DNA from: Candidatus Hydrogenedentota bacterium
GTDB lineage: Bacteria; Hydrogenedentota; Hydrogenedentia; Hydrogenedentales; JAEUWI01
Direction: 5' to 3'
Length of the DNA: 64,000 bases
NCBI GenBank assembly: GCA_016182605.1
Contig: JACPGE010000095.1
Coordinates: 1-64,000, forward strand
In this document: positions 18,288 through 62,237 of the stretch, piece after piece
Position numbering within the stretch: position 1 is the stretch's first letter
Layout of the letters: each line of letters begins with the position of its first letter
The notes under the pieces: model-generated
What the model saw: the letters and a program-made list of their open reading frames with translations, nothing else
Database searches by the model: none
What the model was told of the DNA's origin: nothing
Program-made: the position numbers and the translations under genes

Positions 18288-18372
18288 TGGTGGGCGAGGC
18301 GGGACTTGAACCCGCACACCTCTCGGTACTAGAACCTAAATCTAGCGCGTCTGCCAATTCCGCCACTCGCCC
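18288..18372 (-). tRNA. tRNA-Leu (anticodon UAG)
   Basis: On the minus strand the 85-nt gene starts GGGCGAG and ends CTCGCCCACCA, with a long variable arm typical of Leu tRNA. The anticodon stem CTAGA/TCTAG encloses the loop TTTAGGT, giving anticodon TAG. CCA is encoded. It lies between tRNA-Lys and tig. Confidence 0.95.
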
Positions 18373-18489
18373 GTCGCGATCCCTGGTGGATTCGAGCCAA
18401 CTCGGGGAGGGACTCCGTGGTCCGGCGGCACGCCCCGTAAATATACCAAAAAACACCCCAAAATAACGAGGTGTCTCATTAAGAGCGCA

Positions 18490-18565
18490 TGGTGGGCCGT
18501 GGAGGGCTCGAACCTCCGACCTCGTGATTAAGAGTCACCTGCTCTACCAACTGAGCTAACGGCCC
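18490..18565 (-). tRNA. tRNA-Lys (anticodon CUU)
   Basis: A 76-nt minus-strand cloverleaf starting GGGCCGTTAGCTCAGTTGG, with anticodon loop CTCTTAA (anticodon CTT), T-loop GGTTCGAGCC and an encoded CCA. It is the middle of a three-tRNA cluster. Confidence 0.95.
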
Positions 18566-18574
18566 AAAAAAAAA

Positions 18575-18649
<75 letters not shown>

Positions 18650-24508: not shown

Positions 24509-25270
24509 TTAGTTTTCACGTTCACGCACCGCTTTCCGTAGCGCCTTCATCGCCGCGCTGTGAATCTGCGAAACCCGCGATTCGGACACGTCCAGCACGG
24601 CCCCTACTTCCTTGAGGGTCAGTTCTTCGTAGTAATACAAGTTTAGCACTTTTTGCTGCTGTTCGGGAAGTTCCAGAATGGCCTCCACCAGAATCTCCTG
24701 CCGCTCCCGCTGCTCCGCGGCATGGGAAGGATTGGGCGCCGAGTTGCTGCCCACCATATCGCCTTTGCGCGCATCCCCGGAATCCTCCGAGGGGAGATAG
24801 TCGTCCAGGGAGAGGATTTGCGCGGTCTGAAGCTGGGCCAGGGTATCTTCCACGTGCTCGACCGAGGTGCCCAAGTCAGCCGCTATCTCTTCGGCAGCGG
24901 GCTCCCGCCCCATCTCATGGCGCAGTTTCTCGCGGCATGCGCCCACCTTGCGCGCCATGGTGCGCAGCGAGCGGGGCGCCCAGTCCAGGGTGCGGATCTG
25001 ATCGATGATCGCGCCGCGGATGCGAATGGAAGCATAGGTTGAAAACTTGATGTTCTGATTGTGATCGAACTTCTCCACCGCATCCATCAGGCCCATGACG
25101 CCCCAGCCGATCAGGTCGTCCATCTCCACGCTGTTGGGCACGTGCATCGCCATGCGGCCCGCAATGTACTTCACCACGCGCATGTAATGAATGATGAGCG
25201 TATCGCGCGCGCCCTGATCGTTCTTTTCCTTAAACCGGGTCCAGCACCCTTTTTCGTCAGATTCGATCAC
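24509..25270 (-). CDS. fliA: flagellar sigma factor FliA (sigma-28)
   Basis: A 253-residue sigma factor. Region 2 (IIHYMRVVKYIAGRMAMHVP..DLIGWGVMGLMDAVEKFD), region 3 (DWAPRSLR, a hallmark of FliA) and region 4 with HTH (LTLKEVGAVLDVSESRVSQIHS) are all present. FliA directs late flagellar and chemotaxis genes. It starts with GTG overlapping the fliN/fliY stop codon by 4 nt, so translation is coupled. No FlgM anti-sigma gene is in the window. Confidence 0.95.
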   Translation of the reverse strand: MIESDEKGCWTRFKEKNDQGARDTLIIHYMRVVKYIAGRMAMHVPNSVEMDDLIGWGVMGLMDAVEKFDHNQNIKFSTYASIRIRGAIIDQIRTLDWAPRSLRTMARKVGACREKLRHEMGREPAAEEIAADLGTSVEHVEDTLAQLQTAQILSLDDYLPSEDSGDARKGDMVGSNSAPNPSHAAEQRERQEILVEAILELPEQQQKVLNLYYYEELTLKEVGAVLDVSESRVSQIHSAAMKALRKAVREREN

Positions 25271-26205: not shown

Positions 26206-27189
26206 TCACTCTCTGATAAACGCCAGCAGCTTCACGGCGTGATGCTCCTGGCGCCGGCCGGGGCGTGCAAGAAATTTGCGTACACCACCAATTTCCACTT
26301 CCATCGGATCGCGGGGAGAAGCATTGAGTTGGATCACGTCGCCCACCTGCAAGTGGGCGATATCATACAGGGAAAGCCGCGCATGACCCAATATCGCGTC
26401 CACCGGCACGGAAGCGCGCATCACCGATTTTTCAATGGCGCGGCGGGTCATGCGCGCCTGCTCATCCGTCATGCGGCGGGAAAAGTGCGCCTGCTGGGAG
26501 ATCTGATCCAGGATGGGATTGAGCACCATAAGCGGGATACAGAAATTCATCGTGCCCACGGTCTCGCCGATGTGCACTTCGTAGCCCACCAAAATGACCA
26601 TTTCACTGCCGGCGACGATTTGAACGATCAGCGGATCGCTTTCCTGCTGAATCACGCTCAAGCGGAATTCGATCAACTGCTCCCAGGAACGCCGCAGACT
26701 GTCCAGCAACATCATCACGATGCGCTGAATGATGCGGTTCTCAATCTCGGTGAGTTCGCGTGGCTCGGATAAGGTCATGCCTTTGCCGCCCAACACCCGG
26801 TCCACGATGGGAAACACCATCGACGGACTCATCTCCAACACCGCGTTGCCCTCCAGGGGCGCCATGCTCACGATCGAAAGTGAAGTGGGCCGGGCCACGG
26901 AGAGAATAAATTCGTCGTAGGTGAGCTGATCGATGGAAGTGAGATCGACCCGGACTACCGTGCGCAGGTAGGGCGGAAAAATGATGCTCATTTCCCGAGA
27001 AAAGGCCTCGAAGAGACTCTGGAGTCCCTTGAGCTGCTCTTTTGAAACGCGTTCCGGGCGCCGGAAGTCGTAGGTCGTCAGATGCATCTCGGGCTCAGCC
27101 GAGGGCCCAGACTCCCCCTCGCCCAAGTCGCCTTCCGAGACGGCGCCCAAGAGCAGATCGACTTCATCCTGGCTGAGGATGTCAGCCAT
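26206..27189 (-). CDS. fliM: flagellar motor switch protein FliM
   Basis: A 327-residue protein of standard FliM length. The N-terminal LSQDEVDLLL is a close match to the CheY-P-binding motif LSQ.EID.LL. The middle domain (YDFRRPERVSKEQLKGLQ; FGxGxG-like VLGGKGM) contacts FliG, and the C-terminal SpoA domain (LGHARLSLYDIAHLQVGDVIQLN) pairs with FliN. First gene of the flagellar run, so its promoter should lie in the 600-nt gap upstream. Confidence 0.96.
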   Translation of the reverse strand: MADILSQDEVDLLLGAVSEGDLGEGESGPSAEPEMHLTTYDFRRPERVSKEQLKGLQSLFEAFSREMSIIFPPYLRTVVRVDLTSIDQLTYDEFILSVARPTSLSIVSMAPLEGNAVLEMSPSMVFPIVDRVLGGKGMTLSEPRELTEIENRIIQRIVMMLLDSLRRSWEQLIEFRLSVIQQESDPLIVQIVAGSEMVILVGYEVHIGETVGTMNFCIPLMVLNPILDQISQQAHFSRRMTDEQARMTRRAIEKSVMRASVPVDAILGHARLSLYDIAHLQVGDVIQLNASPRDPMEVEIGGVRKFLARPGRRQEHHAVKLLAFIRE

Positions 27190-29314: not shown

Positions 29315-30844
29315 TTACATGTCGCCCGGAAAGTAAGCCACAATGTCGTGGACGCTTGCGTGCGGAAAGGCAATTTCGGCCATGCCTTCGTCCACCACAT
29401 CACGCAGGGTACGGGTTCGTTTGCGGGCGCAAACGTTGAACACAATGTGGCGCCGGGCTCTCTGGAGCGCCGGATAATTCATATCGGTCATGTGAAAACC
29501 CGTGCGGCGCATCCACGCCCCTATCGTTCCGGGTTCCAGCGCCACCCCGAGATTCTCCAATTCGCGATCGGAGACCCGGAGCAGCAGTGTGCCGCCAGGC
29601 GCCAATAACTCGTGCGCCGTGCGTAAACTGGCCTCCGCGGCGCAGCCAAGCCGGAACAGGTCCCCTATCAACACCACGTCACATGCTACGGTCAGGTCTG
29701 CCTTGGGGGGCCACGCCAGCACACCATGCCCCGTGGCAGCGCCACCCATTGCTTCAAGAATTTCGCGCGCCCCCAAGGCCCTCAAGAGCGGGGCGCTATC
29801 TGTAAAACTCTGCCCCGCATCCAGAATGCGCCGCGCACCCGCAGGCAACAAACTCAACAGGCTTTCGGGCGGCGCCTGGGCGGGCCGCGACGCGGGAAAC
29901 CCAGGCTGTAGCGCGGCAACAGTGTCCAGGATGGTCTGCACCCGATGGACATACGTGTGCTTGGCGAGCACCTCGGCCCGCCCTGCCTCGCCGATGATAC
30001 GCGCCCGATCGGGATTCTCCAGGAACTCCCGGGCCAGCTCCAACAGGTGCTCCGCGGAATCGTATATAATCAGGTGCTTCCGGTCCTCGAACAAATCGCA
30101 CAACCCGTTTCGTTCGGACTCGCGGTTGGTGAGCAGCAGCTTTCCCATGGCCAACGCTTCGAAGACACGCATATTGAGGTCGTTCACGGCCGCATGGTTA
30201 AAGACCAGCCTCCCCGAACACAGCGCCCGGCAGAAATCCTCGCCGTACGCATTTTCGAAGTGGCCCACGGAGTGGCTTTCCCGCAAGCGCGTCAGCAGCC
30301 CGCGCCGCGTCTCGTGGACCCCGGCCGCCACCGACCCCGCAAACGAAATGTCCCGCTCGGGTGCGTCGCAGCAGGGGTGGTGCACTTCCGGATCGGCGCC
30401 GAGCGGCAGCCAGTAGACATGCCGGGAGCCGGTCGCCTGAAGCCGGGGCACAAAACTCTTCTGCGCCGTGAACACTGCGTCAAAGAATATTGCGTCGGCA
30501 TAGTCGATGGGGCTTTGCCAAGTGTCAATGCTGAGGTAGACCTTTGGGCACCGCAGCCCCGTCATGTCCGCGCCCAGGGGATGCCCAAAATCGGAGATGC
30601 CCACGATCAGATCCGGTTCCCAGCCAGCGGGAAGCAGTTCAGACAACCTTACCGAGCCGTTGAGATGGACATTGATGTCGTTCTCACGTTTTAGATCCGG
30701 CCGATGCGTGATCTTGTACGTAACCAGGTACTCGTCGCCAAAGGGCGGCCCTACCGTGAGCACTTCGCCAAACTGGCGGAATGCCTTCACGAAATGCGCC
30801 GTCCACGTCAGTGGATTGGCCAGTCCCAGGATGCAAATGCGCAT
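29315..30844 (-). CDS. CgeB-like glycosyltransferase with C-terminal methyltransferase-like region
   Basis: A 509-residue protein. The N-terminal 330 residues follow the CgeB/spore-maturation GT pattern: RICILGLANPLTWTAHFVKAF, a central PKVYLSIDTW and GADPEVH, then RVFEALAMGKLLLTNRES and the GREA-like EAGRAEVLAKHTYVHRV. The last 170 residues resemble a class I methyltransferase, but the expected GxGxG loop reads DAGQSFTDS, so SAM binding is uncertain. AGGGAG precedes the ATG at 30844. It is the last gene of a surface-glycan operon. Confidence 0.78.
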   Translation of the reverse strand: MRICILGLANPLTWTAHFVKAFRQFGEVLTVGPPFGDEYLVTYKITHRPDLKRENDINVHLNGSVRLSELLPAGWEPDLIVGISDFGHPLGADMTGLRCPKVYLSIDTWQSPIDYADAIFFDAVFTAQKSFVPRLQATGSRHVYWLPLGADPEVHHPCCDAPERDISFAGSVAAGVHETRRGLLTRLRESHSVGHFENAYGEDFCRALCSGRLVFNHAAVNDLNMRVFEALAMGKLLLTNRESERNGLCDLFEDRKHLIIYDSAEHLLELAREFLENPDRARIIGEAGRAEVLAKHTYVHRVQTILDTVAALQPGFPASRPAQAPPESLLSLLPAGARRILDAGQSFTDSAPLLRALGAREILEAMGGAATGHGVLAWPPKADLTVACDVVLIGDLFRLGCAAEASLRTAHELLAPGGTLLLRVSDRELENLGVALEPGTIGAWMRRTGFHMTDMNYPALQRARRHIVFNVCARKRTRTLRDVVDEGMAEIAFPHASVHDIVAYFPGDM

Positions 30845-30953
30845 GGGTTCTCCCTGTCGATTGAGAAATGGTGCACAGGCGCCGGCCGGAGAATCAAACC
30901 CGCGATACGGAAGCCGCCCCGCACGAAGCGCCCGATTGGACCGTCCGGACAAA

Positions 30954-31784
30954 TCAACGGGTCCCAAGCACGCGGTTCAGCAGCCGCCTGGCGCGAATCC
31001 CCAGGGCACTGTCCTGCACGGAAAGCAGATCCAGCGTGCCGGTCACTTTGTCCTGGAACTGCGCGAGCGTATCGGTCCGGTCGATCCAGATGCGGCGCTG
31101 CTCGAAGGGAACCCGGTCTCGCGATGCGGGGCCGTAACAGTTGCTCACCGCGCAACGAAATCCCGCCCCGTTCACGAAGCCGACGGTCTCTTGGGTGTAA
31201 TCCAGCCGGGATCCGTAGGGATAGGCGAAACTGTGAACCGCGGCCTGCAACTCGTCCTCGATGCGCTTCTTGCTGCCGCCAATCTCTTCGCGCTGCTGCG
31301 CAACGCTGCACTGAGAAAGCCGCGGATGGGTCAGCGTGTGGGCGCCGATCTCTATCCCCATGGCGGCAAGTTCGCGCAACTGCGGCCAGTCCAGGATCCG
31401 GTCCGCCTCGTTGCCGCTGCCCGCGGGGAAGCAGGCCCCCGCACTGCCCGCAATCATGAATACCGTGGCGGGAAAGGCATGCTTCACCAGTATAGGCGCC
31501 GCATGGAGCAGGTTGTCGGCGAATCCATCGTCAAAGCTTAGTGCCACACCGGGTCGGCCGAATACGGCGTCACGAAGCGGGATCACCTCCGCATGCGCCG
31601 CCAGCCATTCCATTTGCGCGGCGAAGTCCTCCGGGCGCACATTCATTTCGTGGCCGCGCGCACCCACACTGTGATACGTGAGGATACGGGTCTGCCCGCT
31701 GCCGCTCCGCCGGAGTGTTCCCAATACGCGCGCGCCGTGCTTTACCCCGCGCTTGAGGGCGTGTTTAAGCGGGGCCGTTGCCAT
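30954..31784 (-). CDS. polysaccharide deacetylase family protein (carbohydrate esterase 4 type)
   Basis: A 276-residue protein. ILTYHSVG, ALSFDDGFADN (catalytic base and metal Asp) and IGAHTLTHPRLSQ (metal-binding His pair) are the NodB-fold motifs, and SFAYPYGSRLDY is the later barrel motif. No signal peptide is visible, so it may act on a cytoplasmic glycan or lipid-linked intermediate, removing an N-acetyl group. It overlaps the upstream glycosyltransferase by 20 nt. Confidence 0.9.
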   Translation of the reverse strand: MATAPLKHALKRGVKHGARVLGTLRRSGSGQTRILTYHSVGARGHEMNVRPEDFAAQMEWLAAHAEVIPLRDAVFGRPGVALSFDDGFADNLLHAAPILVKHAFPATVFMIAGSAGACFPAGSGNEADRILDWPQLRELAAMGIEIGAHTLTHPRLSQCSVAQQREEIGGSKKRIEDELQAAVHSFAYPYGSRLDYTQETVGFVNGAGFRCAVSNCYGPASRDRVPFEQRRIWIDRTDTLAQFQDKVTGTLDLLSVQDSALGIRARRLLNRVLGTR

Positions 31785-32634
31785 GCGGCGTCAACTCCTT
31801 CGCGGTGAGCCAGCCCCAGAGGTAACCGGCGGCATAACTGGTATACGCCACAAAGCGCATTTCCTGAAAGGTAATCAGGGCGCGCACGAGCCGCAACGGG
31901 AAGCGCGCCACGCGGTAGCCCAGGGAACGCCGTGCGACGAAGGTCTTGTCGTGCAAATCTTCGTGGGTCTCGTAGACCGATTCGGGCTGAAACTTCTGCG
32001 CGTAGGCGGAACCGAAGCCATTGCGGAAAAACATGCGCGCGAGTTTCTTCCAGCCTGCGGGAAGCGGATGGTAGATCCGTGCCTGGGGCGCAAGGACCAC
32101 ACGATAGCCTGCCGCGCGCAGGCGCTGGCGCAGGTCGGGATCGAGCCCCCGCATGATGTCCTCGCGTTCCCCGCCAATGGCATCGAAAATGGGCTTCGGA
32201 AACGCGCAGCAGCCATGACAGGCGAGGTCGCTGTCAGTGATGGCATCCACGACCGGGGTCTGAAAACGGGGAAACTGCCCCGCCGCCCTGCGCTGAAACG
32301 GAGTAGAGCCTGGCGAGAGAGTAATGCTGGCGCCGGCCATGCCAATCCGGATGTCGGACTCCAGCGTGTGCAGGATGCGTTCGAACACGTGGGCGTCGGC
32401 GAGTTCGCTGTCGTCATCCAGAATCATCAGCACGGCGCCGCGCGCCTGGGCCGCCCCCTGATTTATCGCCTTCCCCTGGGGGAAAACCCCCTTGATCATA
32501 ATAATCTCGACGTCTTGAATCGTCTGGCGTTGCACACTCTCAAGCAGACGGGGCACACAACCGTTTCGATAGCCGTCCAGCGTGGGAATTACTACCGATA
32601 GCCGGGGTGTGCTGCTCTCGGGCTCCACGTCCAT
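31765..32634 (-). CDS. family 2 glycosyltransferase
   Basis: A 289-residue GT-A enzyme. LSVVIPTLDGYRNGCVPRLLESV opens the Rossmann-like core, and GAVLMILDDDSE contains the DxD metal and nucleotide-sugar motif. IMRGLDPDLRQRLRAAGYRV is the downstream acceptor-side ED-like segment. The C-terminal hydrophobic region suggests membrane association. It likely adds a sugar to a surface polysaccharide. Confidence 0.88.
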   Translation of the reverse strand: MDVEPESSTPRLSVVIPTLDGYRNGCVPRLLESVQRQTIQDVEIIMIKGVFPQGKAINQGAAQARGAVLMILDDDSELADAHVFERILHTLESDIRIGMAGASITLSPGSTPFQRRAAGQFPRFQTPVVDAITDSDLACHGCCAFPKPIFDAIGGEREDIMRGLDPDLRQRLRAAGYRVVLAPQARIYHPLPAGWKKLARMFFRNGFGSAYAQKFQPESVYETHEDLHDKTFVARRSLGYRVARFPLRLVRALITFQEMRFVAYTSYAAGYLWGWLTAKELTPHGNGPA

Positions 32635-32658
32635 CCCGGTGGACTCCTTTGTGCCGGG

Positions 32659-33306
32659 TCAAGGGCCGGTTGGTGCGGAGGAGCGATCCAATACGCAGAC
32701 CAGCCCCATCACCAGGGCTTCGGCCTCTTCCTGAACAACGTCTATCGGCACCGAAGGGATGGGGTAGCCGTTTTCATCCCAGCCGCTCCAGACCATCGTG
32801 GTCACCAGCGCCCCGATAAACTGGGCAGAGAGCGCCTCGGGCCGGACCCGCCGGAAGCGGCCTTGATCGAGACCGCGCTGGACGATCGCCCCCACGCGCG
32901 CATTGATTTGATCGAGCAGACGGTCGGTGCATTCGAAATGGCCCTTGGCCACACTGCCCGCCTGCGCCAGATCGCGCAAGATCAGCCGGATTTGGGCGGG
33001 ATTCGACGCCAGGTAGGAAACGAGATCGCGGGCCCAGCGCTTGAGCACCACTTCCGGGTCGCCGGAGTCGTCCTCCCCCAACTGGTGGATGATCCCCAGA
33101 AGCAGCCGCTCAGAGACCGCCTCCGCAATCGCATAGCGCCCTTCAAAGTGGGCAAAAATGCTCGGAGGACGCACCCCCACCCGCTCCGCGACTTCCTTAA
33201 GCTGAAAGCCCTCCACCCCGTGCTTGGCGATCAACACTTCCGCCACCTCCAGGATCTTCTCCCGAGTGTCGGAGCGCCGGCGATCCGTGCTTTCCACTTT
33301 AGTCAT
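32659..33306 (-). CDS. TetR-family transcriptional regulator
   Basis: A 215-residue protein. The N-terminal 50 residues form the TetR DNA-binding domain (TREKILEVAEVLIAKHGVEG, LKEVAERVGVRPPSIFAHF), and the rest is a helical ligand domain. It overlaps the acyltransferase gene by 8 nt and is 24 nt before the glycosyltransferase, so a regulator sits inside a glycan-synthesis operon and may control it. Ligand unknown. Confidence 0.92.
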   Translation of the reverse strand: MTKVESTDRRRSDTREKILEVAEVLIAKHGVEGFQLKEVAERVGVRPPSIFAHFEGRYAIAEAVSERLLLGIIHQLGEDDSGDPEVVLKRWARDLVSYLASNPAQIRLILRDLAQAGSVAKGHFECTDRLLDQINARVGAIVQRGLDQGRFRRVRPEALSAQFIGALVTTMVWSGWDENGYPIPSVPIDVVQEEAEALVMGLVCVLDRSSAPTGP

Positions 33307-33919
33307 GGTCTTCCTCCGCCGCTACGGCGAAGCCATACAGCGACAGTAGCTCGCTGTGCCGTTTCAGGCGCGAGGCCTTGTCTGCGTCCATCCGGTGGGC
33401 AATACGCTGGGCACTGGGTGCGCCGGCCCAGACCTCGAAGGGCGCCACATTCTTGGTCAGTATGCTGCCGGGAGCGATCAGGGCACCCTCCCCGATCGTC
33501 ACTCCGGGTAGAATATAAGTTCGCGCGCCGATATAACAATTCTTTTCGATGTGAATCGGCTTGGTGATGTGGGGCGTAAGGCGCCAATGAATATCGGTGC
33601 CGTGGAAGGTGTGGTTCGTGTCCCGAATCACCGTGTAGGGCCCCACATATACCCCGTCGCCTATGGTAACCGATGCATTGCTCTGTATCATGACGTAATC
33701 AGCCACCGTCACCGAGTCGCCCAGATTGATCCGGCCCCCATGGTGCGTGCGGAGCACCAGGTTCCCATGCAGGGTACAGTTCGACCCCAGGCCCACATGT
33801 CCCTTGACGTCCAATCCAAATCCACATATCTCGGAACCCGCACCCCATTGGCAAAAGAGCCGCCGGGTGCGCCAATTGTACCAGCGAAGGGACCAAGCTT
33901 TGGGATAGGCTGAAGTCAT
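33299..33919 (-). CDS. hexapeptide-repeat (left-handed beta-helix) acyltransferase
   Basis: A 206-residue protein. The hexapeptide pattern runs from LGSNCTLHGNLVLRTHH through GDSVTVADYVMIQSNASVTI to GARTYILPGVTIGEGALIAPG. HTFHGTDIHWR contains a likely catalytic His. It resembles WbbJ/LacA-type O-acetyltransferases that acetylate surface sugars. It is the first gene of the glycan operon. Confidence 0.88.
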   Translation of the reverse strand: MTSAYPKAWSLRWYNWRTRRLFCQWGAGSEICGFGLDVKGHVGLGSNCTLHGNLVLRTHHGGRINLGDSVTVADYVMIQSNASVTIGDGVYVGPYTVIRDTNHTFHGTDIHWRLTPHITKPIHIEKNCYIGARTYILPGVTIGEGALIAPGSILTKNVAPFEVWAGAPSAQRIAHRMDADKASRLKRHSELLSLYGFAVAAEEDHD

Positions 33920-34359
33920 GATGCCACATTGTAAACGATACCCGCTGGAAGGATAAAGGCGCGCCCAATTTTCACTGGCATCGGGTGCGTTGGAGGCGCC
34001 ATCCGGCGCAATGTGTGGGCAGACGGATTGCGTGGCTCTGTGATCGAAAATGCAATCAGAATTACAAATAAATTTATTATTAATCGTATTTTTCTCTATA
34101 TTTGCAAATTTAAAATCTCCAAAAACCGATAAATTCCCTTCCCAATCGTGTAATTTTATGTTAACCTATGACATACTTCCCGTGGTGGCCGCCCGTGGCA
34201 ATTCAGGCGATCACAAGATATAGGTGCATTTTGTTTGAGCTTGCATATATATTGTAACCGTGCTAGTATCTACACGACATATTGTATAATTTCCAGATTT
34301 TATAGTCCATATATTGTGGTCACTGAATGCTCCTTAGCGGAAGGAAGGCAGGTACCAGT
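33920..34359. other. AT-rich intergenic region between divergent operons
   Basis: From about 34040 to 34325 base composition drops sharply to AT-rich, unlike the flanking GC-rich coding DNA. Several TATAAT/TATATT-like hexamers are present (for example GTATAAT near 34284). It should hold the promoters of both divergent operons. No gene is seen. Confidence 0.55.
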
Positions 34360-35943
34360 ATGTCCAAGTCTGGGATTGTGAGTATCGTTTACTTGCCATC
34401 GTTGCCCTTTACGTTGGACAAGCTCATACCACAGGCAGCCATGTTCGCCCTGGCGCACCGTTTGCAAGCGGCCGGCTACCGCGTTTTGTGCTATGACGAT
34501 GCCACCGTTCAGCATGTGCGGGAACTGCAAGCGTGCGGCGCGGCGGAACTGGGCGCCCTGAACACGGATCTGGCCTCTGCCCTCCCTCAACGGCAGCGGC
34601 ACGCCAGAAGGTTACGCGCAGTCTTGCGGGGCAGACGCGTGGATCGCCTCTTGAGCTACTATCGCCGGCGCGAAACCCCGGATCGCATGGTGTTGCTCGC
34701 AGAAGATTATGGTGAATATTGCGAAGCACTGGCGATGATAGCGCTCTTACGCACCCGGCTCACGTGCCGTTTTGAACTTGCCGGGCGCTTTGTGCGCCAT
34801 TGGGCCCACGCGTTGCGCGCGCTCCATGCCGGTTCGGGCGGCATTGGGGTCTTCGAAGAACCCACTTCCCCGCACGCAACGATCACCCCGGGAACAACCT
34901 GGTTGCCAGAGCAGGTGCGGGCGGAAGACATCACGCAAGGTCTCATGCGGCTCGACCTGCACCGGCTGCATTCGCGGCTGATCGCAGCGGGAAAATTCAA
35001 CCTTTTGTCTTGGAGCATGACGGAACTGGGCGAACCCAGACCGTGCAGCACCTCAAGAGATGATATCCCCTCGCCGGACACGCGCCGCGATCTGTGGCTG
35101 GCGCGGCTTCTTGCGCAGGTCGGCTGTAACGCGGTACATCTCGATCTTACGGAGATCTCCGAGTGGCGCGTGCACCAGACGATGCACACCGTGCGCGACG
35201 CGTTCGATCGCCAGTTTCTGGCCCTGAGCCTGCGCGATCCGGCCTGGCTGGGGGAACACCCCCACCTCATGGGTGAAATCGCCTGCGTGGCGGCGGATGT
35301 CTCCCTGCCTAGCGGCAGCCAGCGCCTTCTGGAAGATTTTTTCCGGATGCGGACAGGAGTCGGCCGTTGCGAAAACGGACTGCGTCTCCTGCGCGAGGCC
35401 GGCGTAAGCACGGGCTTGCGCCTCCAGTATCCCTGCCCGTGGGACGACTACCACACGGCGGCGGAAACGGCGCGCTTCATTGCGCGCACCAAGCCCGATA
35501 CCGTTGCCGTGGACGCGGTCGTGCCCTCGCCCGCCTCTCCCTGGTATGGCGAGCCCGCACACTATGGATTCCGGATCTCCGGCCGCATGGTGCGGCGCTG
35601 GCTGATGCCTGGCGCGCACGATGCTGGCGGCTGCCGCCACCGGGATACCCCCCCCTGGCGCAATGCCTTTGGCAATGCAAAAGAGCAGGAAGCGGCCGTG
35701 CGGGAACTTCTTGAACAGAGTGGCCATGCCCAGCGCCCCGCGCCTTCGGCGTTGGAACGCTTGCTCGCGGCCGGCCTGAACACGCATCAGAGCGCGGCGC
35801 ACGGCAAGCTTGAATCCAGTTTGCCCGCGTTTGACGCCGGCCCCCTGGAAGCGGCGGCGGCGGCCTTTAACGCGGCGATGACCACCCACAAACAAACGCG
35901 CCCTTCGGGGTATACATTCCGCCTGGCGGCAGTAGGAAATTAG
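34360..35943 (+). CDS. radical-SAM-like protein with decayed cluster motif
   Basis: A 527-residue protein. The N-terminal 130 residues have the alternating pattern of the B12-binding-type domain seen in many radical SAM enzymes (LAHRLQAAGYRVLCYDDATV). The core matches a radical SAM TIM barrel: SGSQRLLEDFFRMRTGV, GLRLLREAGVSTGLRLQYPCP, then KPDTVAVDAVVPSPASPWY and HYGFRISG. Where TxxGCPxxCxxC is expected it reads TELGEPRPCSTS: Glu225, Cys229, Ser232. Only one of three cluster Cys remains, so a [4Fe-4S] cluster and SAM cleavage look lost. It is followed 3 nt later by a ketosynthase gene. ATG 34360 has CAGG 8 nt upstream; ATG 34327 is an alternative. Confidence 0.72.
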   Translation: MSKSGIVSIVYLPSLPFTLDKLIPQAAMFALAHRLQAAGYRVLCYDDATVQHVRELQACGAAELGALNTDLASALPQRQRHARRLRAVLRGRRVDRLLSYYRRRETPDRMVLLAEDYGEYCEALAMIALLRTRLTCRFELAGRFVRHWAHALRALHAGSGGIGVFEEPTSPHATITPGTTWLPEQVRAEDITQGLMRLDLHRLHSRLIAAGKFNLLSWSMTELGEPRPCSTSRDDIPSPDTRRDLWLARLLAQVGCNAVHLDLTEISEWRVHQTMHTVRDAFDRQFLALSLRDPAWLGEHPHLMGEIACVAADVSLPSGSQRLLEDFFRMRTGVGRCENGLRLLREAGVSTGLRLQYPCPWDDYHTAAETARFIARTKPDTVAVDAVVPSPASPWYGEPAHYGFRISGRMVRRWLMPGAHDAGGCRHRDTPPWRNAFGNAKEQEAAVRELLEQSGHAQRPAPSALERLLAAGLNTHQSAAHGKLESSLPAFDAGPLEAAAAAFNAAMTTHKQTRPSGYTFRLAAVGN

Positions 35944-35946
35944 ACC

Positions 35947-37215
35947 ATGGCAGTCCCGCAAGATACGAAACCCCACGCCATACCGGTGGTCATCACCGGT
36001 TTGGGTGTGTTGTCGTGCAACGGCACCGGGCGCAAGTCCTACTGGAAGGCACTGGCCAACGGGCAGTCGGGAATCCGGGCCATCAAGCGCTTCGACGCTT
36101 CGGACCTGCCCTGCCAGATTGCGGGCGAGCTGTGGGATTTCAATCCTGAAGATTACATGAAAAAATCCACCGTGCGCCGTTGGAACCGGCACGTGCACCA
36201 GGCCGTCGCATGCTCGCGCCTCGCGGTGGAGGACGCCGAGTTGAACCAGGCCAAGTATGACCCGGAACGCATCGCGGTGGCCATCGGCACGAGTATCGGA
36301 TCGCCCGACGAGGCCTATCAGGAGCACATGGAATCCCTGGAGACGGGCGGCTTCCGCAAGATCAGCAAGTTCGCGTCCAGCGCGTTTTCGGGCCACTCCG
36401 CGACGGTACACGTTTCCATCGACATCGGCTTGCGCGGGCCCGCCGTGACCATTTCCAGCGGATGCGCCACCGGCCTCGATGTGCTCGCCTGGGGCATGAA
36501 AGAGATTCGTCTGGGCAATGCCGATGCCGCCTTGGTCGGCGCCACGGAATCGCCCATTTTTCCCCTCTCCATGGCATCCGCCTGCTCGCTGGGCATTCTC
36601 TCGCAGCGCAACCGGGAACCGGAACTCGCCATGCGCCCCTTCGATCGCCACCGCGACGGTATCGTGCTGGCCGAAGGCGCCTGCGCGGTCGTGCTGGAGC
36701 GGCTGGACCATGCGCTGGCCCGGGGCGCGCGCATTCTCGGCGAGGTCGGCGGCTCGGGCGCCGCGGCGGAAGCCCAGAGTCCGCTGATCCTCGATCAGCA
36801 GGGCCAGGCGCTGGCACGGGCGATTGCCTCCTGTCTTGCCGAAGCCGGGTTGAGCGCACACGAAGTGGAATGTGTGCTGGCGCATGGCGTTTCCCTGGAG
36901 ATGTATGACAAGTGCGAAACAAACGCCTATAAGCTGGCGCTCGGCAAGCACGCCTACCGGATTCCGGTGTCGGCGGTGAAGTCCATGATCGGCCAGTCCT
37001 ATTCCGCGGGCGGTCTGCTCAGTGTGGGCGCAGCCCTGATGGTGCTCAACGATGGCATCGTGCCGCCAACCCTGAACCTGGAGCATCCCGACCCGGCCTG
37101 TGATTTGGACTATGTGCCGCAGCGCGCGCGTATGAACGATATCCGGTGTGCCCTGGTGACGTCGATCAGCTTTGGAGGCACGCACAGTGCCGTGGTATTA
37201 AAACGAGCGGTTTAA
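35947..37215 (+). CDS. beta-ketoacyl-ACP synthase (FabF-like) with Cys-His-Gln active site
   Basis: A 422-residue thiolase-fold ketosynthase. The nucleophile is Cys173 (SSGCATGLD), the first His is His313 (LAHGVSLEMYDKCETNA), and the conserved Lys is Lys345 (VKSMIG). The second active-site His of FabF (KSMTGH) is replaced by Gln350 (KSMIGQ). E. coli FabF uses Cys163-His303-His340, with the same spacing. Loss of the second His should impair malonyl decarboxylation, so it may be an acyltransferase, a chain-length-type partner or a specialised KS. No ACP or ketoreductase gene is adjacent. Its stop overlaps the next ATG (TAATG). Confidence 0.9.
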   Translation: MAVPQDTKPHAIPVVITGLGVLSCNGTGRKSYWKALANGQSGIRAIKRFDASDLPCQIAGELWDFNPEDYMKKSTVRRWNRHVHQAVACSRLAVEDAELNQAKYDPERIAVAIGTSIGSPDEAYQEHMESLETGGFRKISKFASSAFSGHSATVHVSIDIGLRGPAVTISSGCATGLDVLAWGMKEIRLGNADAALVGATESPIFPLSMASACSLGILSQRNREPELAMRPFDRHRDGIVLAEGACAVVLERLDHALARGARILGEVGGSGAAAEAQSPLILDQQGQALARAIASCLAEAGLSAHEVECVLAHGVSLEMYDKCETNAYKLALGKHAYRIPVSAVKSMIGQSYSAGGLLSVGAALMVLNDGIVPPTLNLEHPDPACDLDYVPQRARMNDIRCALVTSISFGGTHSAVVLKRAV

Positions 37216-39734
37216 TGCTTGAACTGAACAATGTAAACATTGCGAGCGCGATGCTCCTGCTCTCAGCCGTATTGAGCATGGGGCTGGGGACCTTCGTCTT
37301 CTTCCGCAATCAGCGCCGTCCCACGCACCGCGCCTTTGCCTGGCTGACGCTGGACCTGAGCCTGTGGGCTCTGGGCGTGTTCTGCATTATTCACGCCCAC
37401 ACCGAATTCAGCGCGCGCTTCTGGCTGATCGCCACCTTCTGCGTGGCCAGTTTCCTCCCCGCCACCTTCTATCATTTCATCACCTATTTCCCCTATCAGC
37501 GCTTCGAGGGGTCGCGCCTCTTCCTGGCAGTAAATTATGTGGGCGCGCTCCTGATCTGCATTGGCACCTTCACCCCGTGGTACCTCGTCAAACTGGAGGT
37601 CTTTCCGGATCGCCCCCCCATTCCCCACTACGGACCCGTCTTTCAGGTCTACGGGCTTCTCGTCGGCGCCACCGCGCTGGTCATGTTCATCAACCTCTTT
37701 TCGAAGTTGAAGGAAACCGGCGGCATCCAGCGCCGCCAGATCGAACACGTCCTCTTCAGCTTCTTCGCGGCCATCATCACCGCCTCGCTGACCAATGTGC
37801 TCGCCCCGGTCGCCAACATCGCCGACATGGAGGCCTACGGCCCCTGTTTCCTCGTCCTCATGATGGGCGGGCTCGCCTACTCCATGATCCGCTACCATCT
37901 GCTGGACATCTGGGTGCTGGCATCGCGCACCACCGTCTACGCCGTCACCTCCGGCTTTGTGCTTCTCACCTTCTTCTGCATCGTCTCCATCGTGCACTGG
38001 CTCTTCACCGACGTCGGCCGCGGCAACGATCTGCTTACCGCCACCTTGACGGCATTGATCGTCTCCGTGGGCATTCAACCGCTCAAGGAGCGCGTGCAGC
38101 TCTTCTTCGATCGGCTCGTGCTCTACCGCCGCTATGACACGAAGGCCTTTCTTGAGCGCATCAGCCGCTATGCCACCCAGTACGTGAAACTGGACGAACT
38201 GCTGGAAAAAGTCGCCAAGGACATCAAGCAAACGGTGGGCGTGCGCCGCATCCGCATACTGGTGGTGTGCGACAAGCGCCCCCTCGGCATGATCACCGAA
38301 TATTCCACCGAGGCGCAGGAACTGCGGGAGCGCAACATCAATCTGGACTACCTGCTCCATCACGTGGAGCGCAACCCCGAGCCCCTCGTGCTGGAAGAGC
38401 TGATTCACCGCCCAAGCGAGGAAAACGCGAAGGTGGCCAAACACCTCGCCGAACTGGACGCCTATCTGCTTGTCCCCCTGCGCACCACTTCGGGTGTGGT
38501 CGGCATGATGACCCTCGGCGAGAAGAACACCCGCGACATCTACAGCCGCGAAGACACGGAAGTCTTCTCCACACTCGCCGTGCCGCTCGCCACCGCCATC
38601 GAAAACGCGCGCCTCTACCGGAAATACGAAGAGTTGAACCTGCACCTGGAACTCATCATGAGCAACATGCGCGGGGGCGTTATCGCCGTGGACACCGTGG
38701 GGATCATCACCACGGTCAACGAGGAGGCCCGGGAACTGCTGGGCTGTGTGCAGCCGGGGCAAGGCCTCGACGCGCTGGATTCCAAGGTCGCCGCCGTGCT
38801 GCGCCAGACCCTGCGGCGGCGCCACAGCATCAACCACGTGGAAATGATCATCGGCGACGAAAACGGCAAACCGGGCATACCCGTGGCGCTTTCGTCGTCG
38901 CACCTGCGCAGCGTGGGCGAGGAACACCTCGGCGCCATGGTCTTAATCTACAACATGACCGAGATCAAGCGTCTGGAATCCAATGTGCAGCGCGCGGACC
39001 GGCTCTCCTCCATCGGCACCATGGCGGCCGGCATGGCCCACGAGATCAAGAATCCCCTGCAATCGATCAAGACCTTCACGCAGTTGCTGCTGGAGCGCTA
39101 CGAGGACGCCGACTTCCGCCACACCTTTACGGAAGTGGTGCCGCCCGAAGTGCAGCGCATCGACACGATTGTTACGCGGCTGCTCCACTTTGCCCGCCCG
39201 CGGCCCATCCATTTCATCCCCCAGAATCTTCAGCGGATCATCGATGACGTCATCGCCCTGGTGGAAAACCAGTTACGCAAGAGCATGATCGGCATTAGCT
39301 GCGAGTATCCCGAGGTGGCGCAAGAGGTTACCGCGGACAACCAGCAGTTGCACCAGGTCTTCCTCAACCTCATTCTGAACGCCATCACGGCGATGGAAGG
39401 CTGCACGGAACGGCGTCTCCACATAAAACTTTATTACGAACGGACAAATTTACATAATACGCCCAGCCTCCCCCTCTATGACGTGAGCTGCGCCCGGGTG
39501 GAGGTGAGCGATACCGGCTGTGGCATACCGCCGGAAAATATGGACCAGTTGTTCAATCCCTTCTTCACAACCCGTGATAACGGAAGCGGACTCGGCCTCG
39601 CCGTCGTGCATGGTATTGTCACCAGTCACAACGGCGAGATCGACGTCGCAAGCGAAGTGGGCAAAGGCACCACCTTTACCCTCACTTTTCCGCTCGCGGC
39701 CAACAGAGCAAACCTTGAAAGGTTTGGGACATGA
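37215..39734 (+). CDS. membrane sensor histidine kinase (7TM, GAF, PAS, HisKA, HATPase)
   Basis: An 839-residue protein. Seven or eight hydrophobic helices (residues 5-290) resemble the N-terminal 7TM sensor module of bacterial kinases. A GAF domain follows (about 330-470), then a PAS domain (480-590), HisKA with His609 in GMAHEIKNPLQSI, and HATPase with NLILNAITAME, DTGCGIPPENM and NGSGLGLAVVHGI. It overlaps the ketosynthase by 1 nt and the next kinase-like gene by 4 nt, so expression is coupled. It is the most likely phosphoryl source for the NtrC-type regulator two genes on. Confidence 0.92.
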   Translation: MLELNNVNIASAMLLLSAVLSMGLGTFVFFRNQRRPTHRAFAWLTLDLSLWALGVFCIIHAHTEFSARFWLIATFCVASFLPATFYHFITYFPYQRFEGSRLFLAVNYVGALLICIGTFTPWYLVKLEVFPDRPPIPHYGPVFQVYGLLVGATALVMFINLFSKLKETGGIQRRQIEHVLFSFFAAIITASLTNVLAPVANIADMEAYGPCFLVLMMGGLAYSMIRYHLLDIWVLASRTTVYAVTSGFVLLTFFCIVSIVHWLFTDVGRGNDLLTATLTALIVSVGIQPLKERVQLFFDRLVLYRRYDTKAFLERISRYATQYVKLDELLEKVAKDIKQTVGVRRIRILVVCDKRPLGMITEYSTEAQELRERNINLDYLLHHVERNPEPLVLEELIHRPSEENAKVAKHLAELDAYLLVPLRTTSGVVGMMTLGEKNTRDIYSREDTEVFSTLAVPLATAIENARLYRKYEELNLHLELIMSNMRGGVIAVDTVGIITTVNEEARELLGCVQPGQGLDALDSKVAAVLRQTLRRRHSINHVEMIIGDENGKPGIPVALSSSHLRSVGEEHLGAMVLIYNMTEIKRLESNVQRADRLSSIGTMAAGMAHEIKNPLQSIKTFTQLLLERYEDADFRHTFTEVVPPEVQRIDTIVTRLLHFARPRPIHFIPQNLQRIIDDVIALVENQLRKSMIGISCEYPEVAQEVTADNQQLHQVFLNLILNAITAMEGCTERRLHIKLYYERTNLHNTPSLPLYDVSCARVEVSDTGCGIPPENMDQLFNPFFTTRDNGSGLGLAVVHGIVTSHNGEIDVASEVGKGTTFTLTFPLAANRANLERFGT

Positions 39735-41641
39735 ATGTCTTGCTGCTTATCGCAACCGAACCCGCGGTCAGCGAATCGGTGAAAGCCGCCGCCGCGGATA
39801 CCGATCTCGTTTTGGTGGAGCCCGATCTCGATCAGGCGAAACGCCGCCTGGCCTCCATCGAAGTCGATGCGCTCTTTATCGACGACACCGTGCTGCACGG
39901 ACTGCGCAACCTCGCTGCGGTAAAGGATCTCGCCCCAGGCAAACCGGTCGTCGTCATCTCCTCGCGGGGCGACGTCATCAGCCAGGCCGACCTCTACCGT
40001 GCCGGGGCCGATCAAGTCCTGGTCAAGCCCTTTGCCCCCCAGGATGTGCACCGCATGCTGGAACAGTCCACCTCGGTGGTGCGCGCGCCGGCCTCATCCC
40101 CGCTCGCGGAATTGGCCGTTCCCGGCGGCGCTCCCGCCTTGCACCAGCACCAGATCGCGCTGCGCTGGCTGAGCCGCGCCGCCACCAACCGGAGCGAAGC
40201 CACCCAGCTCTGCGAAAGCCTGCTCGAAACCGTCTCGGACATTTTCAACCTCGTCCGCGCGGCCATCGTTCTGGATACGGGCAATGGCCTGAACATCGTG
40301 GCCTCTTCGGGCATCTCGCATTCCATCGTAAAGTCGCTGCGCCTCGAATACCACCGCGGGCTCATGCGCTGGTTCGACGAGCATGCCTGCCTCTTCGACC
40401 GCCACACCGGGCAAGACGCCCCCGCGGCCCAGAAAGAATTGCGCCTGCTGAACGGCCAACTCGCCGCACCCTTCCTGCAAGACGGCGAAGTCTTTGGCGC
40501 CATCATCCTCGGCGAAAAGATTTCCGGCCTTAATTACAGTGGTGAGGAGCGCGATCTCCTGGCCCTGCTGGCCCGCGCCGCCTCCCAGGCCATCGAGCGA
40601 CAGCAGAAACAGCATCAGGTGCAGCGATCCGAGAGCAGCCTGCGCGACATGTTTACCGACGCGCCCGTGGGCCTGCTGTCCGTGGACAAGAACCGCATTG
40701 TCACCATGCTGAACCGCCATGGCGAAAGCTTGCTGAGCCTGCAAAAAGATGCCCTCATCGGAGAGCGCCTCCAGCGCGCGGGTTCGGCCTTTGCCGATGT
40801 GGTCATGCGCACCCTGCGCAACAACGAGCCCACGCAACAGAACGTCTATGACGCCGCAACGGGGCGCCACCTCCAGGTGCAGGCCCAGCCCCTGGCCGAC
40901 GGCGGCGCGATCGTCTCCTTCGGCCCGCTGCACGAAGTCCACGTGAACACCGAGGAGATTGCCTACAGCCCCTTCTGGGAATACCTCTCCTCGCGCGTGG
41001 CCCAGGAAATCAAGAATCCCATGGTGGCCATCAACACCTTCGCGCAGCTCCTGCCCAAGCGCTACGACTCCGACGATTTCCGCGACGCCTTCAGCCGCGT
41101 GGTGCAGCAGGAGATCAACCGCATCAACAATGTGGTGGAAACGCTCTTCCAGTTTGCGCGCAATCCCAAGCTGAGCCTGCAAAAGTGCAACGTGAACCAG
41201 GCCATCCGCGATGTGCTGCACTCCTTCGAGGAAGTGCTGGAGGCGCGCTCCATTGAATTGAACACCTCCCTCGATCCGGGCATGCTGGAAGCGGAACTCG
41301 ACCCGGTCTTCTTCTCCCAGGCCTTGCAGAATGTGCTGCAAAACGCCATCGACGCCATGCCGGCCGGCGGGAAGCTCGCCGTGCGCTCGGAACAGCAGAA
41401 CAACCGGGCCTCCATCATGATCTCCGACACGGGCCCCTCCATCTCCACCGACGATGCCGAAAACATCTTTCTGCCCTTCTACAGCACGAAAGAACAGGGC
41501 ATGGGGCTGGGACTGCCCATTGCCAACCGGATTCTGCAACAGCATCAGGGCGCATTGCGCCTGGTGACCTCGGAGTCGGGCGAGAAACTGTTCTCGATCG
41601 AATTGCCGACCGTACCGGCGGCGAGTTTGCATACCAATTAG
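39731..41641 (+). CDS. kinase-like signalling protein lacking the phospho-acceptor His
   Basis: A 636-residue soluble protein. Residues 1-110 form a receiver-like domain with Asp in ALFIDDTV and Lys in VLVKPF, but without the usual acidic pair after strand 1. A GAF-like region (140-290) and PAS (295-400) follow. The H-box reads RVAQEIKNPMVAI: Gln425 (codon CAG) replaces the conserved His. HATPase motifs remain (NVLQNAIDAMP; GMGLGLPIAN), although DTGPSI departs from DTGxGI. It cannot autophosphorylate at the usual site; it may act on its partner kinase as an allosteric or phosphatase-like subunit (inference). Confidence 0.88.
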   Translation: MNVLLLIATEPAVSESVKAAAADTDLVLVEPDLDQAKRRLASIEVDALFIDDTVLHGLRNLAAVKDLAPGKPVVVISSRGDVISQADLYRAGADQVLVKPFAPQDVHRMLEQSTSVVRAPASSPLAELAVPGGAPALHQHQIALRWLSRAATNRSEATQLCESLLETVSDIFNLVRAAIVLDTGNGLNIVASSGISHSIVKSLRLEYHRGLMRWFDEHACLFDRHTGQDAPAAQKELRLLNGQLAAPFLQDGEVFGAIILGEKISGLNYSGEERDLLALLARAASQAIERQQKQHQVQRSESSLRDMFTDAPVGLLSVDKNRIVTMLNRHGESLLSLQKDALIGERLQRAGSAFADVVMRTLRNNEPTQQNVYDAATGRHLQVQAQPLADGGAIVSFGPLHEVHVNTEEIAYSPFWEYLSSRVAQEIKNPMVAINTFAQLLPKRYDSDDFRDAFSRVVQQEINRINNVVETLFQFARNPKLSLQKCNVNQAIRDVLHSFEEVLEARSIELNTSLDPGMLEAELDPVFFSQALQNVLQNAIDAMPAGGKLAVRSEQQNNRASIMISDTGPSISTDDAENIFLPFYSTKEQGMGLGLPIANRILQQHQGALRLVTSESGEKLFSIELPTVPAASLHTN

Positions 41642-41692: not shown

Positions 41693-43087
41693 ATGAAGAA
41701 CATCTTGGCGATAGACGACGAGATCAGCATCCGCGAGTCGTACCGCATGATCCTGGGCGGCGACTACCACCTCCTCCTGGCCGAGAACGGCCATAACGGA
41801 CTCGATGCATTGGCCGCCAATCGCGTGGATCTCGTCCTGCTCGATCTGTCCATGCCCGGCATGAACGGCATGGAATTCCTCGAGGCGATGTCCGGCCAGG
41901 GCCTCTCGGTGCCTGTCATCGTCATTACTGGCTCCAACACGGTCGACGTGGCGGTGCAGGCCATGAAGCAGGGCGCCAACGAGTTCGTTATGAAGCCCTT
42001 CGATGTGAATGAACTCGTTCGCAAGATTGAAGGGGTGCTCGCCGAGGATGCGAAACGCCGTTCGCTCTGCTCCATTCAGGATATCCACCCCGGCGAGTTC
42101 GAAGGCCTCATCGGCGACGCCCCCCTCTTCCGCGAAGCCCTGAACAAGGCGCGCATGGCCATGCAGGTCGATTCGACCGTGCTCATCACCGGCGAAACCG
42201 GCACCGGCAAGGATGTCCTCGCCCGGGCCATTCACCAGGGCAGCCAGCGCAAGGACAAACAGTTTGTGCCGCTGTGCTGCGGCGCCATTCCGGCCAACCT
42301 CGTGGAAAGTGAACTCTTCGGCACGATCAAGGGCGCCTTCACCGGCGCCACCGACTCCCGCCAGGGCAAGATGGAACTGGCCCACCGCGGCACCCTCTTC
42401 CTGGACGAAATCGGCGAGATGCCCACCGACGCGCAGGTCAAATTGCTGCGCGTGTTGCAGGACGGCAGCTTCTACGCGGTGGGCGGCAACGTCCTGAAAG
42501 AAGTGGACGTCCGCTTTATCTGCGCCACGAACCGCCCCTTTGACGAAGCCATCGCCGAAGGGCTCTTCCGCGAAGACCTCTACTACCGGATCAACGTGCT
42601 GCCCATCGAGATGCCCGCACTGCGCAACCGCCGCCAGGACATTCCAAAACTGGTCTCCCATTTCGTGCGAATACAGGGCGCCAAACTGCGTTCGCAGGTC
42701 GAGGAATTCGCGCCGCGCGCCATGGCCCGGCTCACCGCGGCCCCCTGGCCCGGCAACGTGCGCCAACTGCAAAACACCGTGGAGCGCCTGCTCGTCTGCT
42801 ATGGCAACGAACGCGTGATCAAGCCGGAACACCTCGACGAAGTCCTGCCAAAATCCTTTGCGGATCCCAAGGATGTCAGCCTGGAAAACTTTGACGGCCT
42901 CTCCCTGCAACAGGCCACCCAGCGCGTGGAACGCTTCGTTATTCGTCAGGCCCTGGAGCGCAACAGCTTCATTCAGTCCAAGGCCGCGGACGCCCTCGGC
43001 ACCACCCGCCGCATCCTCAAATACAAGATGGATCAACTCGGCATTGAGAGCCCCGTTGAGAACCAGCCCGACAGCCTCGCAGGCTGA
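41693..43087 (+). CDS. NtrC-family sigma-54-dependent response regulator
   Basis: A 464-residue regulator. The receiver (1-115) has Asp8/Asp9 and phospho-acceptor Asp51 (LLDLSMPG). The AAA+ domain has Walker A GETGTGKD, the sigma-54-contacting GAFTGA loop, and Walker [13 protein letters not shown]. The C-terminal Fis-type HTH ([22 protein letters not shown]) binds enhancers. It activates sigma-54 promoters and is the expected output of the two kinase genes just upstream (52-nt gap). Its targets are not evident in the window. Confidence 0.95.
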
Positions 43088-61878: not shown

Positions 61879-62237
61879 GGGGGCGATCTGGTCTCGACGG
61901 GGGTGGATGAAACGTTGGTTGCGTGTCGAGGAATCCCGTTGGCCTCGTAAAAAAACGGGAACCGTATAACTGCGAACGATCAACAATTCGCAATGGCCGC
62001 CTAACCTCGGCCACGTCCTCCACCTGACTGTCTGCTAGGGTGATCAGGGCGCCAAACAGCGGGCCCCGCGCCAAACCCGGTTGGTGAACCGATTGGCAGG
62101 GTAGGTTTTCACCTGGCGGCCTTGGGTAGCGAGTCTGACGCGACCCCGGGTGGCGAGACCTAAAAGACAGACTACACACGTAGACGCCTCCGTAGAAACG
62201 CTTCCGGACGCGGGTTCGATTCCCGCCGCCTCCACCA
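61879..62237 (+). ncRNA. ssrA: transfer-messenger RNA (tmRNA, ssrA)
   Basis: A one-piece tmRNA of 359 nt. The 5' end GGGGGCGATCTGGTCTCGAC and 3' end CGCCTCCACCA pair as a 7-bp acceptor stem, and the T-arm GGTTCGATTCC is intact. The tag frame starts at 61972 and stops at TAA (62002-62004), encoding ANDQQFAMAA. The AND start and ALAA-like end match tags recognised by ClpXP, whose genes are also in the window. Downstream pseudoknots fill the middle. CCA is encoded. Confidence 0.96.

Follow-up and report, generated by a model that had tools for sequence, protein, structure and literature searches.

Results

The gene examined here heads a conserved five-gene operon within a 64,000-nucleotide stretch of Candidatus Hydrogenedentota DNA, referred to below as the window. 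It encodes a radical-SAM-like protein and is followed by genes for a ketosynthase (KS), an intact-looking histidine kinase (HK1), a kinase-like protein (HK2) and an NtrC-type regulator, an order retained, as far as contigs reach, in about 35 genomes, with the neighbours called by homology. The features are as follows, those upstream of the gene coming from a PWM scan unless otherwise stated:

34211..34230, +, weak upstream NrdR-type box, 10.4 bits
34241..34269, +, sigma-70-like promoter, read from the sequence: -35 TTGCAT (34241-34246), 17-bp spacer, extended -10 TGcTAGTAT (34261-34269)
34242..34261, +, NrdR-type box 1, TGCATATATATTGTAACCGT, 15.2 bits, overlapping the -35 element
34272..34291, +, NrdR-type box 2, ACACGACATATTGTATAATT, 17.7 bits
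34304..34323, +, NrdR-type box 3, AGTCCATATATTGTGGTCAC, 19.1 bits
34360..35943, +, cluster-less cobalamin-radical-SAM-like protein, 527 aa, conserved C-terminus AVGN (reading frame, orthologues, model and fold search)
35020..35055, +, degenerate cluster motif TELGEPRPCSTS, residues 221-232 (sequence, alignment)
35947..37215, +, FabF-like KS with Cys-His-Gln for Cys-His-His, Gln350 codon 36994-36996 (Pfam/NCBIfam)
37215..39734, +, HK1, a HisKA_7TM-GAF-PAS-HisKA-HATPase kinase with intact H-box (AHEIKNP); start ATG 37215 inferred, longest reading frame from 37146
39731..41641, +, HK2, a receiver-GAF-HisKA-HATPase kinase-like protein whose phospho-acceptor His is Gln425 (AQEIKNP, codon 41003-41005)
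41693..43087, +, NtrC-type sigma-54 response regulator with receiver Asp, GAFTGA and Fis HTH present

The open reading frame at the first gene spans 34327-35943 (+), and the conserved start within it is ATG 34360, which gives 527 intact codons ending 3 bp ahead of the KS gene. Flagellar genes lie a few kb away (24509-25270 and 26503-27072, both on the minus strand: a FliA-type sigma factor and FliM), and fliM is also near the operon in genomes G014, G015, G035 and G038. A divergent cluster at 29315-33919 (-) encodes a hexapeptide acetyltransferase, a TetR regulator, glycosyltransferases and a polysaccharide deacetylase, and relatives of the acetyltransferase and of the GT2 enzymes recur next to the operon in several genomes. 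Rfam further places a tmRNA gene and three tRNA genes at 61879-62237 (+) and 18291-18649 (-).

The cluster site and the predicted fold

Where radical SAM enzymes carry TxRGCPxxCxxC, the window protein reads TELGEPRPCSTS. Alignment with the phylum's own cobalamin-radical-SAM paralogues, whose motif here is ITARGCPxxxCxxC (e.g., ITARGCPxGRCxFC or SRGCCGHCTFC), places Glu225 and Ser232 at the first and third cluster cysteines, as an earlier note on this DNA had proposed; its residue numbers 221-232 hold with the start at 34360, whereas the nucleotide position it gave, 35011, lies three codons upstream of the true 35020. Cys229, the sole motif cysteine left, is not conserved among relatives. A different cysteine triplet, which that note had named as evidence against its reading, does not occur: a scan of the whole 527-aa protein, with its 10 cysteines, finds no CxxC or CxxxCxxC elsewhere, and the cluster-less relatives hold no alternative triplet at the cluster site.

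By sequence the window protein is barely recognizable: it has no Pfam match (PF04055 included, E 1), as a single query it retrieves nothing from the PDB by sequence, and NCBIfam yields one weak hit, to TIGR04479 (20 bits); among 29 relatives, PF04055 matches in 8 at a threshold of 0.01 and PF02310 weakly in 4. Structure prediction, a check proposed at the outset, brings out the likeness to cobalamin-dependent radical SAM structures: the AlphaFold2 model of the window protein (pLDDT 79.6, pTM 0.83, cluster loop 225-233 of low confidence) and that of an intact relative (pLDDT 87.0, pTM 0.90) both find TsrM as the top Foldseek match in the PDB (E 2e-8 and 6e-19, respectively), with AprD4, MgmA, OxsB, CysS and TokK among further matches. 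The predicted fold combines an N-terminal Rossmann-type cobalamin domain with a partial TIM barrel, the latter present in the window-protein model, and the TsrM match is full-length; the barrel strands, SGSQ and the C-terminal GFRISG are all in place, as previously described.

Loss of the cluster across a conserved family

A protein search of 60 genomes from the order recovers relatives in 55, and a family profile matches all 68 of 68 phylum genomes, with some 60 clear orthologues, mostly one per genome, whose profile scores far exceed those of ordinary B12-radical-SAM paralogues. Run over named genomes, the profile returns 27 loci, nearly all from Candidatus Hydrogenedentota. One contig titled Nitrospiraceae (L071, JAACEL010000473.1) carries a family member; it equals a contig of G054, a genome of the same order, and probably stems from a mislabelled MAG.

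CxxxCxxC is absent in 52 of the 60 orthologues that cover the site, and since the loss is common to so many it is not a sequencing error. The eight that keep the motif (G019, G038, G044, G050, G054, G056, G061 and G067) all belong to GTDB family f5. Erosion of the ancestral motif can be read from loop remnants, among them SRGC, SRGS, SRAC and SRGA; many orthologues have no cysteine in the cluster loop, and the loop itself is gone in G047, G055 and G002. Within one operon context the family offers a graded series of three cysteines, one and none. With the family tree rooted on cluster-bearing paralogues, the intact copies fall inside part of f5, which implies between about 6 losses (weak nodes resolved favourably) and 11 (tree as drawn) if three in-register cysteines cannot be regained; under plain parsimony, in which regain is permitted, the intact label has to change four times. 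A subclade of family f11 (G031, G037, G039, G045 and G053) shares FYYQD, FIYQE or FFYQD after β1, at the position of the cluster motif, and this replacement is possibly a new functional motif.

Intact homologues had been named beforehand as a sign that the window copy might be a merely decayed gene. The eight that exist are a minority, sit in the same operon and show the same eroded accessory motifs, and the loss is therefore not a private decay of the window copy; equally, because CxxxCxxC persists in that operon context in these eight members, some of them may still be enzymes or bear a structural or redox cluster.

The accessory motifs extend this picture. The paralogues' SAM-site motifs DDNF, ESGxQ and GxPxET (after β2, β4 and β5) are replaced in the family members compared. 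DDxF (after β2), GxPxET (β5) and GGxH of the cobalamin domain, whose second Gly and His are not retained, are gone in all members compared, the intact ones included, and even among the intact members the ExGxQ Glu is mostly lost; a few members keep it. What the family has in their place is a near-invariant core of GSQRLLEDFY and YPCPxDDYHTRAET, in which G319, S320, Q321, P358, D362, D363, H365, T366 and E369 are invariant in a 28-row alignment and DD-x-H-T-x-x-E is near-invariant in members with and without the cysteines. Because the accessory motifs are eroded even in intact members, which share the different core, the departure from standard chemistry seems to predate cysteine loss. The C-terminus mostly reads A-V-[GA]-N, whether or not the gene sits in the operon; this tail, of low confidence in the model, is possibly a docking or modified tail.

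Between close pairs, dN/dS (NG86) is low in cluster-less members (G048/G052, 0.095; G020/G025, 0.10; G010/G033, 0.13; G047/G055, 0.16; G008/G017, 0.16; G016/G059, 0.18), as it is in intact ones (G044/G050, 0.14; G044/G067, 0.16). The earlier note's suggestion that selection has maintained the fold in the absence of its cluster is thus borne out by phylum-wide presence, shared cysteine loss, an invariant different core and low dN/dS in cluster-less pairs; that the family is under selection and mostly cluster-less we consider very likely.

Tandem NrdR-type boxes in the promoter

Apart from boxes 1-3, neither strand of the 64-kb window has a site that reaches 14 bits. They fit the 16-bp palindromic NrdR box, with ACAATATATTGTGT as the consensus in family promoters, and the layout of TTGCAT, extended -10 and tandem boxes recurs by eye upstream of most orthologues. 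At least one box is found in 57 of 58 upstream regions of family genes. Published NrdR box pairs have 15-16 bp spacers (PMC12051234); phylum-wide, 73 box intervals measure 30-32 bp, and a tandem spacing of about 31 bp centre to centre holds for most family intervals. A matrix built from the family boxes picks up the E. coli nrdA site (19.7 bits) and the nrdHIEF sites before nrdH (17.1 and 12.5 bits, 31 bp apart), and no site at E. coli nrdDG.

A tandem-box scan of the phylum turned up further sites before thyX-nrdJ in several genomes, and a dedicated check of the region ahead of these genes was positive in 18 of 20 genomes (the window's is one of the 18), against 0-0.4 in shuffles; one of the two negative genomes has a truncated upstream region. 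The NrdR gene is present in 61 of 67 genomes, as is the AdoCbl-dependent ribonucleotide reductase NrdJ (61/67). Motif, spacing and co-regulated genes together make it probable that NrdR controls the radical-SAM-like gene. Two other forms of control were considered and rejected: a sigma-54 promoter before the operon scores 10.26 against 10.18 in shuffled sequence, and Rfam has no cobalamin riboswitch match near the gene.

Tandem boxes also occur at other loci. In the window's genome one pair (L220, G000:C2:4545-4584) lies between mutS and fliR-flhB-flhA-flhF, and in two f11 genomes pairs lie near flhB (L232, L233), with gene names at all three loci taken from reading the translations; these positions suggest a link between NrdR and flagellar genes. 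Another pair in the window's genome (L221, G000:C102:4939-4978) precedes the gene for a PAS-domain protein of 1130 aa that looks like a sensor kinase. The literature searched holds no NrdR regulon with radical SAM or flagellar genes.

Altered partners in the operon

Two of the downstream genes have lost key residues of their own. In all 35 of 35 operon copies of the KS the second catalytic His is Gln, while the Cys and first His are kept; the operon enzyme reads KSMxGQxYxxGG, whereas the ordinary FabF of the same genomes retains the second His (KSMxGH) in the phylum's KSMxGHLLGAAG. HK2 has Gln for the phospho-acceptor His (AQEIKNP for AHEIKNP) in 25 of 25 copies; HK1, with its AHEIKNP H-box and its ATPase (N and G) boxes, and the regulator look intact. 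Neither replacement, a Cys-His-Gln triad or a His-less kinase, proves inactivity.

In degenerate-codon scans, each genome of the operon lineages has exactly one altered HK2 site and families f7 and f11 have none; the altered KS site is distributed likewise, save for a few f11 matches that look like chance. Families f7 and f11 have the radical-SAM-like gene alone, without its partner genes. FliM is present in 33 of 35 genomes with the HK2 Gln vs. 12 of 32 without it (Fisher p 8e-7, kinship ignored).

Discussion

In light of these results, our preferred reading, to which we assign a probability of about 0.6, is that the family descends from cobalamin-dependent radical SAM enzymes, no longer performs radical SAM chemistry in most lineages and serves as a non-radical adaptor under NrdR control. 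We infer a binding, scaffold or adaptor role for the protein and, from the structure of the operon, an interaction with the KS or the kinases. NrdR would repress the gene together with nrdJ, and the product would be made when deoxynucleotide supply by the AdoCbl-dependent ribonucleotide reductase and thyX is switched on too. In flagellated lineages this non-radical binding or adaptor protein and the Cys-His-Gln KS might then provide the HK1/HK2 pair of kinases with its cytoplasmic input; within the pair, HK2 would act as a His-less, DivL-like allosteric partner of HK1, with output through the NtrC-type regulator; candidate ligands would be an acyl thioester, from the ketosynthase, or cobalamin or nucleotides, from ancestry and NrdR.

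These parts differ in strength. The basic function of the radical-SAM-like protein is independent of the partner genes, because some lineages have the gene without them; since f7 and f11 keep it in this way, signalling cannot be the whole function. A signalling role for the protein is plausible, with the odds somewhat against it. Doubtful, if conceivable, is the fullest version of the proposal, a sensory operon in which a cluster-less radical SAM fold, a changed-triad KS and a kinase without phospho-acceptor make up a receptor complex of repurposed enzymes, controlled by NrdR and reporting deoxynucleotide/cobalamin or acyl state to a motility-tied sigma-54 regulator; if true, it would be a sensory operon of a new kind.

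The conserved core itself raises the alternative that the protein is still an enzyme, its barrel rebuilt round another catalytic site (DD-x-H-T-x-x-E, GSQRLL) that performs non-radical chemistry, with a substrate tied to the KS or to deoxynucleotide/cobalamin metabolism. Purifying selection, the Cys and one His retained by the operon KS, and the nature of the most conserved residues, which are polar, lie at the ends of strands β4 and β5 and are common to members with and without cysteines, all agree with it, but sequence and fold searches return no solved relative with such a site, and the adjoining KS and HK2 are altered at key residues too, which points to signalling, not a pathway; we regard this alternative as rather unlikely. 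It is also quite unlikely that the protein assists the AdoCbl-dependent ribonucleotide reductase by handling cobalamin or nucleotides (as a sensor, chaperone or reactivator), the kinases having been added later in flagellated lineages. In favour of this, the gene has the same NrdR-type boxes as thyX-nrdJ, NrdJ is as widespread as noted above, and lineages that lack the kinase operon, and for the most part flagella as well, still have both gene and boxes; yet the paralogues' GGxH is lost from the cobalamin domain of all members compared and no physical linkage to nrdJ is seen.

The remaining two alternatives concern the window copy and its site. A lone decayed gene is ruled out for the family, in which 52 of 60 members share the loss and dN/dS is low; the window copy, however, is the fastest-evolving member, with the longest branch in the tree (2.27), a terminal branch 4.1 times the median vs. 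1.6 times for the KS and HK1, and several weakened family motifs, FHI and YSR among them. Because of this branch, and with no close relative for a direct dN/dS, selection on it is judged from the family, the intact frame and the kept invariants. Decay with loss of function in the window's genome only is nevertheless very unlikely, given the uninterrupted 527-codon frame that closes 3 bp before the next gene, the retention of all family-invariant residues and of the promoter boxes, and cluster loss as the family norm. Still less credible, to the point of being negligible, is a cluster assembled with other ligands, either Cys229 with Glu225/Ser232 or a partner protein. Non-cysteine ligands do occur in some Fe-S proteins and one cysteine is left at the site, but Cys229 is not conserved, many orthologues lack any loop cysteine or, in the three genomes named above, the loop itself, and the SAM-site motifs are lost as well.

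The family predicts an NrdR target other than ribonucleotide reductase, together with a two-component system in which two partner proteins are altered, and its graded cysteine series makes the role of the fold without radical chemistry directly testable. In the papers searched we found no radical SAM lineage without its cluster that is kept by selection phylum-wide.

Several known systems help to place the locus. By fold the family belongs with the cobalamin-dependent radical SAM enzymes, sharing the predicted N-terminal Rossmann-like domain and partial TIM barrel of TsrM (6wte), AprD4 (6fd2), MgmA (9ccb), TokK, OxsB and CysS, and it fails membership by the defining features: cluster cysteines are missing in 52/60, DDxF, ExGxQ, GxPxET and GGxH are eroded in the members compared, and the window protein has no Pfam match. 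Profile similarity to B12-radical-SAM enzymes of the PhpK, BzaD, HpnJ and ApyD types (TIGR04479, TIGR04385, TIGR03471 and NF050148) extends to up to 18 of 29 family members, whereas the window protein has a single such match, TIGR04479, at 20 bits where the cut-off is 600. The operon KS similarly has the fold, catalytic Cys and first His of FabF (β-ketoacyl-ACP synthase II) and 375 bits to TIGR03150, but it falls under the cut-off of 493.75 and has Gln for the second His in 35/35. The promoter resembles the NrdR regulon in its 16-bp palindromic boxes about 31 bp apart and in the boxes at thyX-nrdJ of the same genomes, and differs from it in its target, which does not encode a ribonucleotide reductase, and in often having three to four boxes, not a pair (PMC12051234). 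With PrsK/PrsR, the two-component system of PEP-CTERM, the operon shares a related kinase, an NtrC-type regulator and polysaccharide-type genes nearby; identity with that system was rejected, the scores of 88.8 of 300 and 341 of 502.6 bits lying under the cut-offs. Finally, HK2 is comparable to the pseudo-histidine kinase DivL of Caulobacter, the His-less partner of CckA (PMC4211667), in that its other boxes are largely kept, its phospho-acceptor His is replaced and its partner kinase is intact, and it departs from DivL in having Gln rather than Tyr, a receiver-GAF input and a sigma-54 regulator as output.
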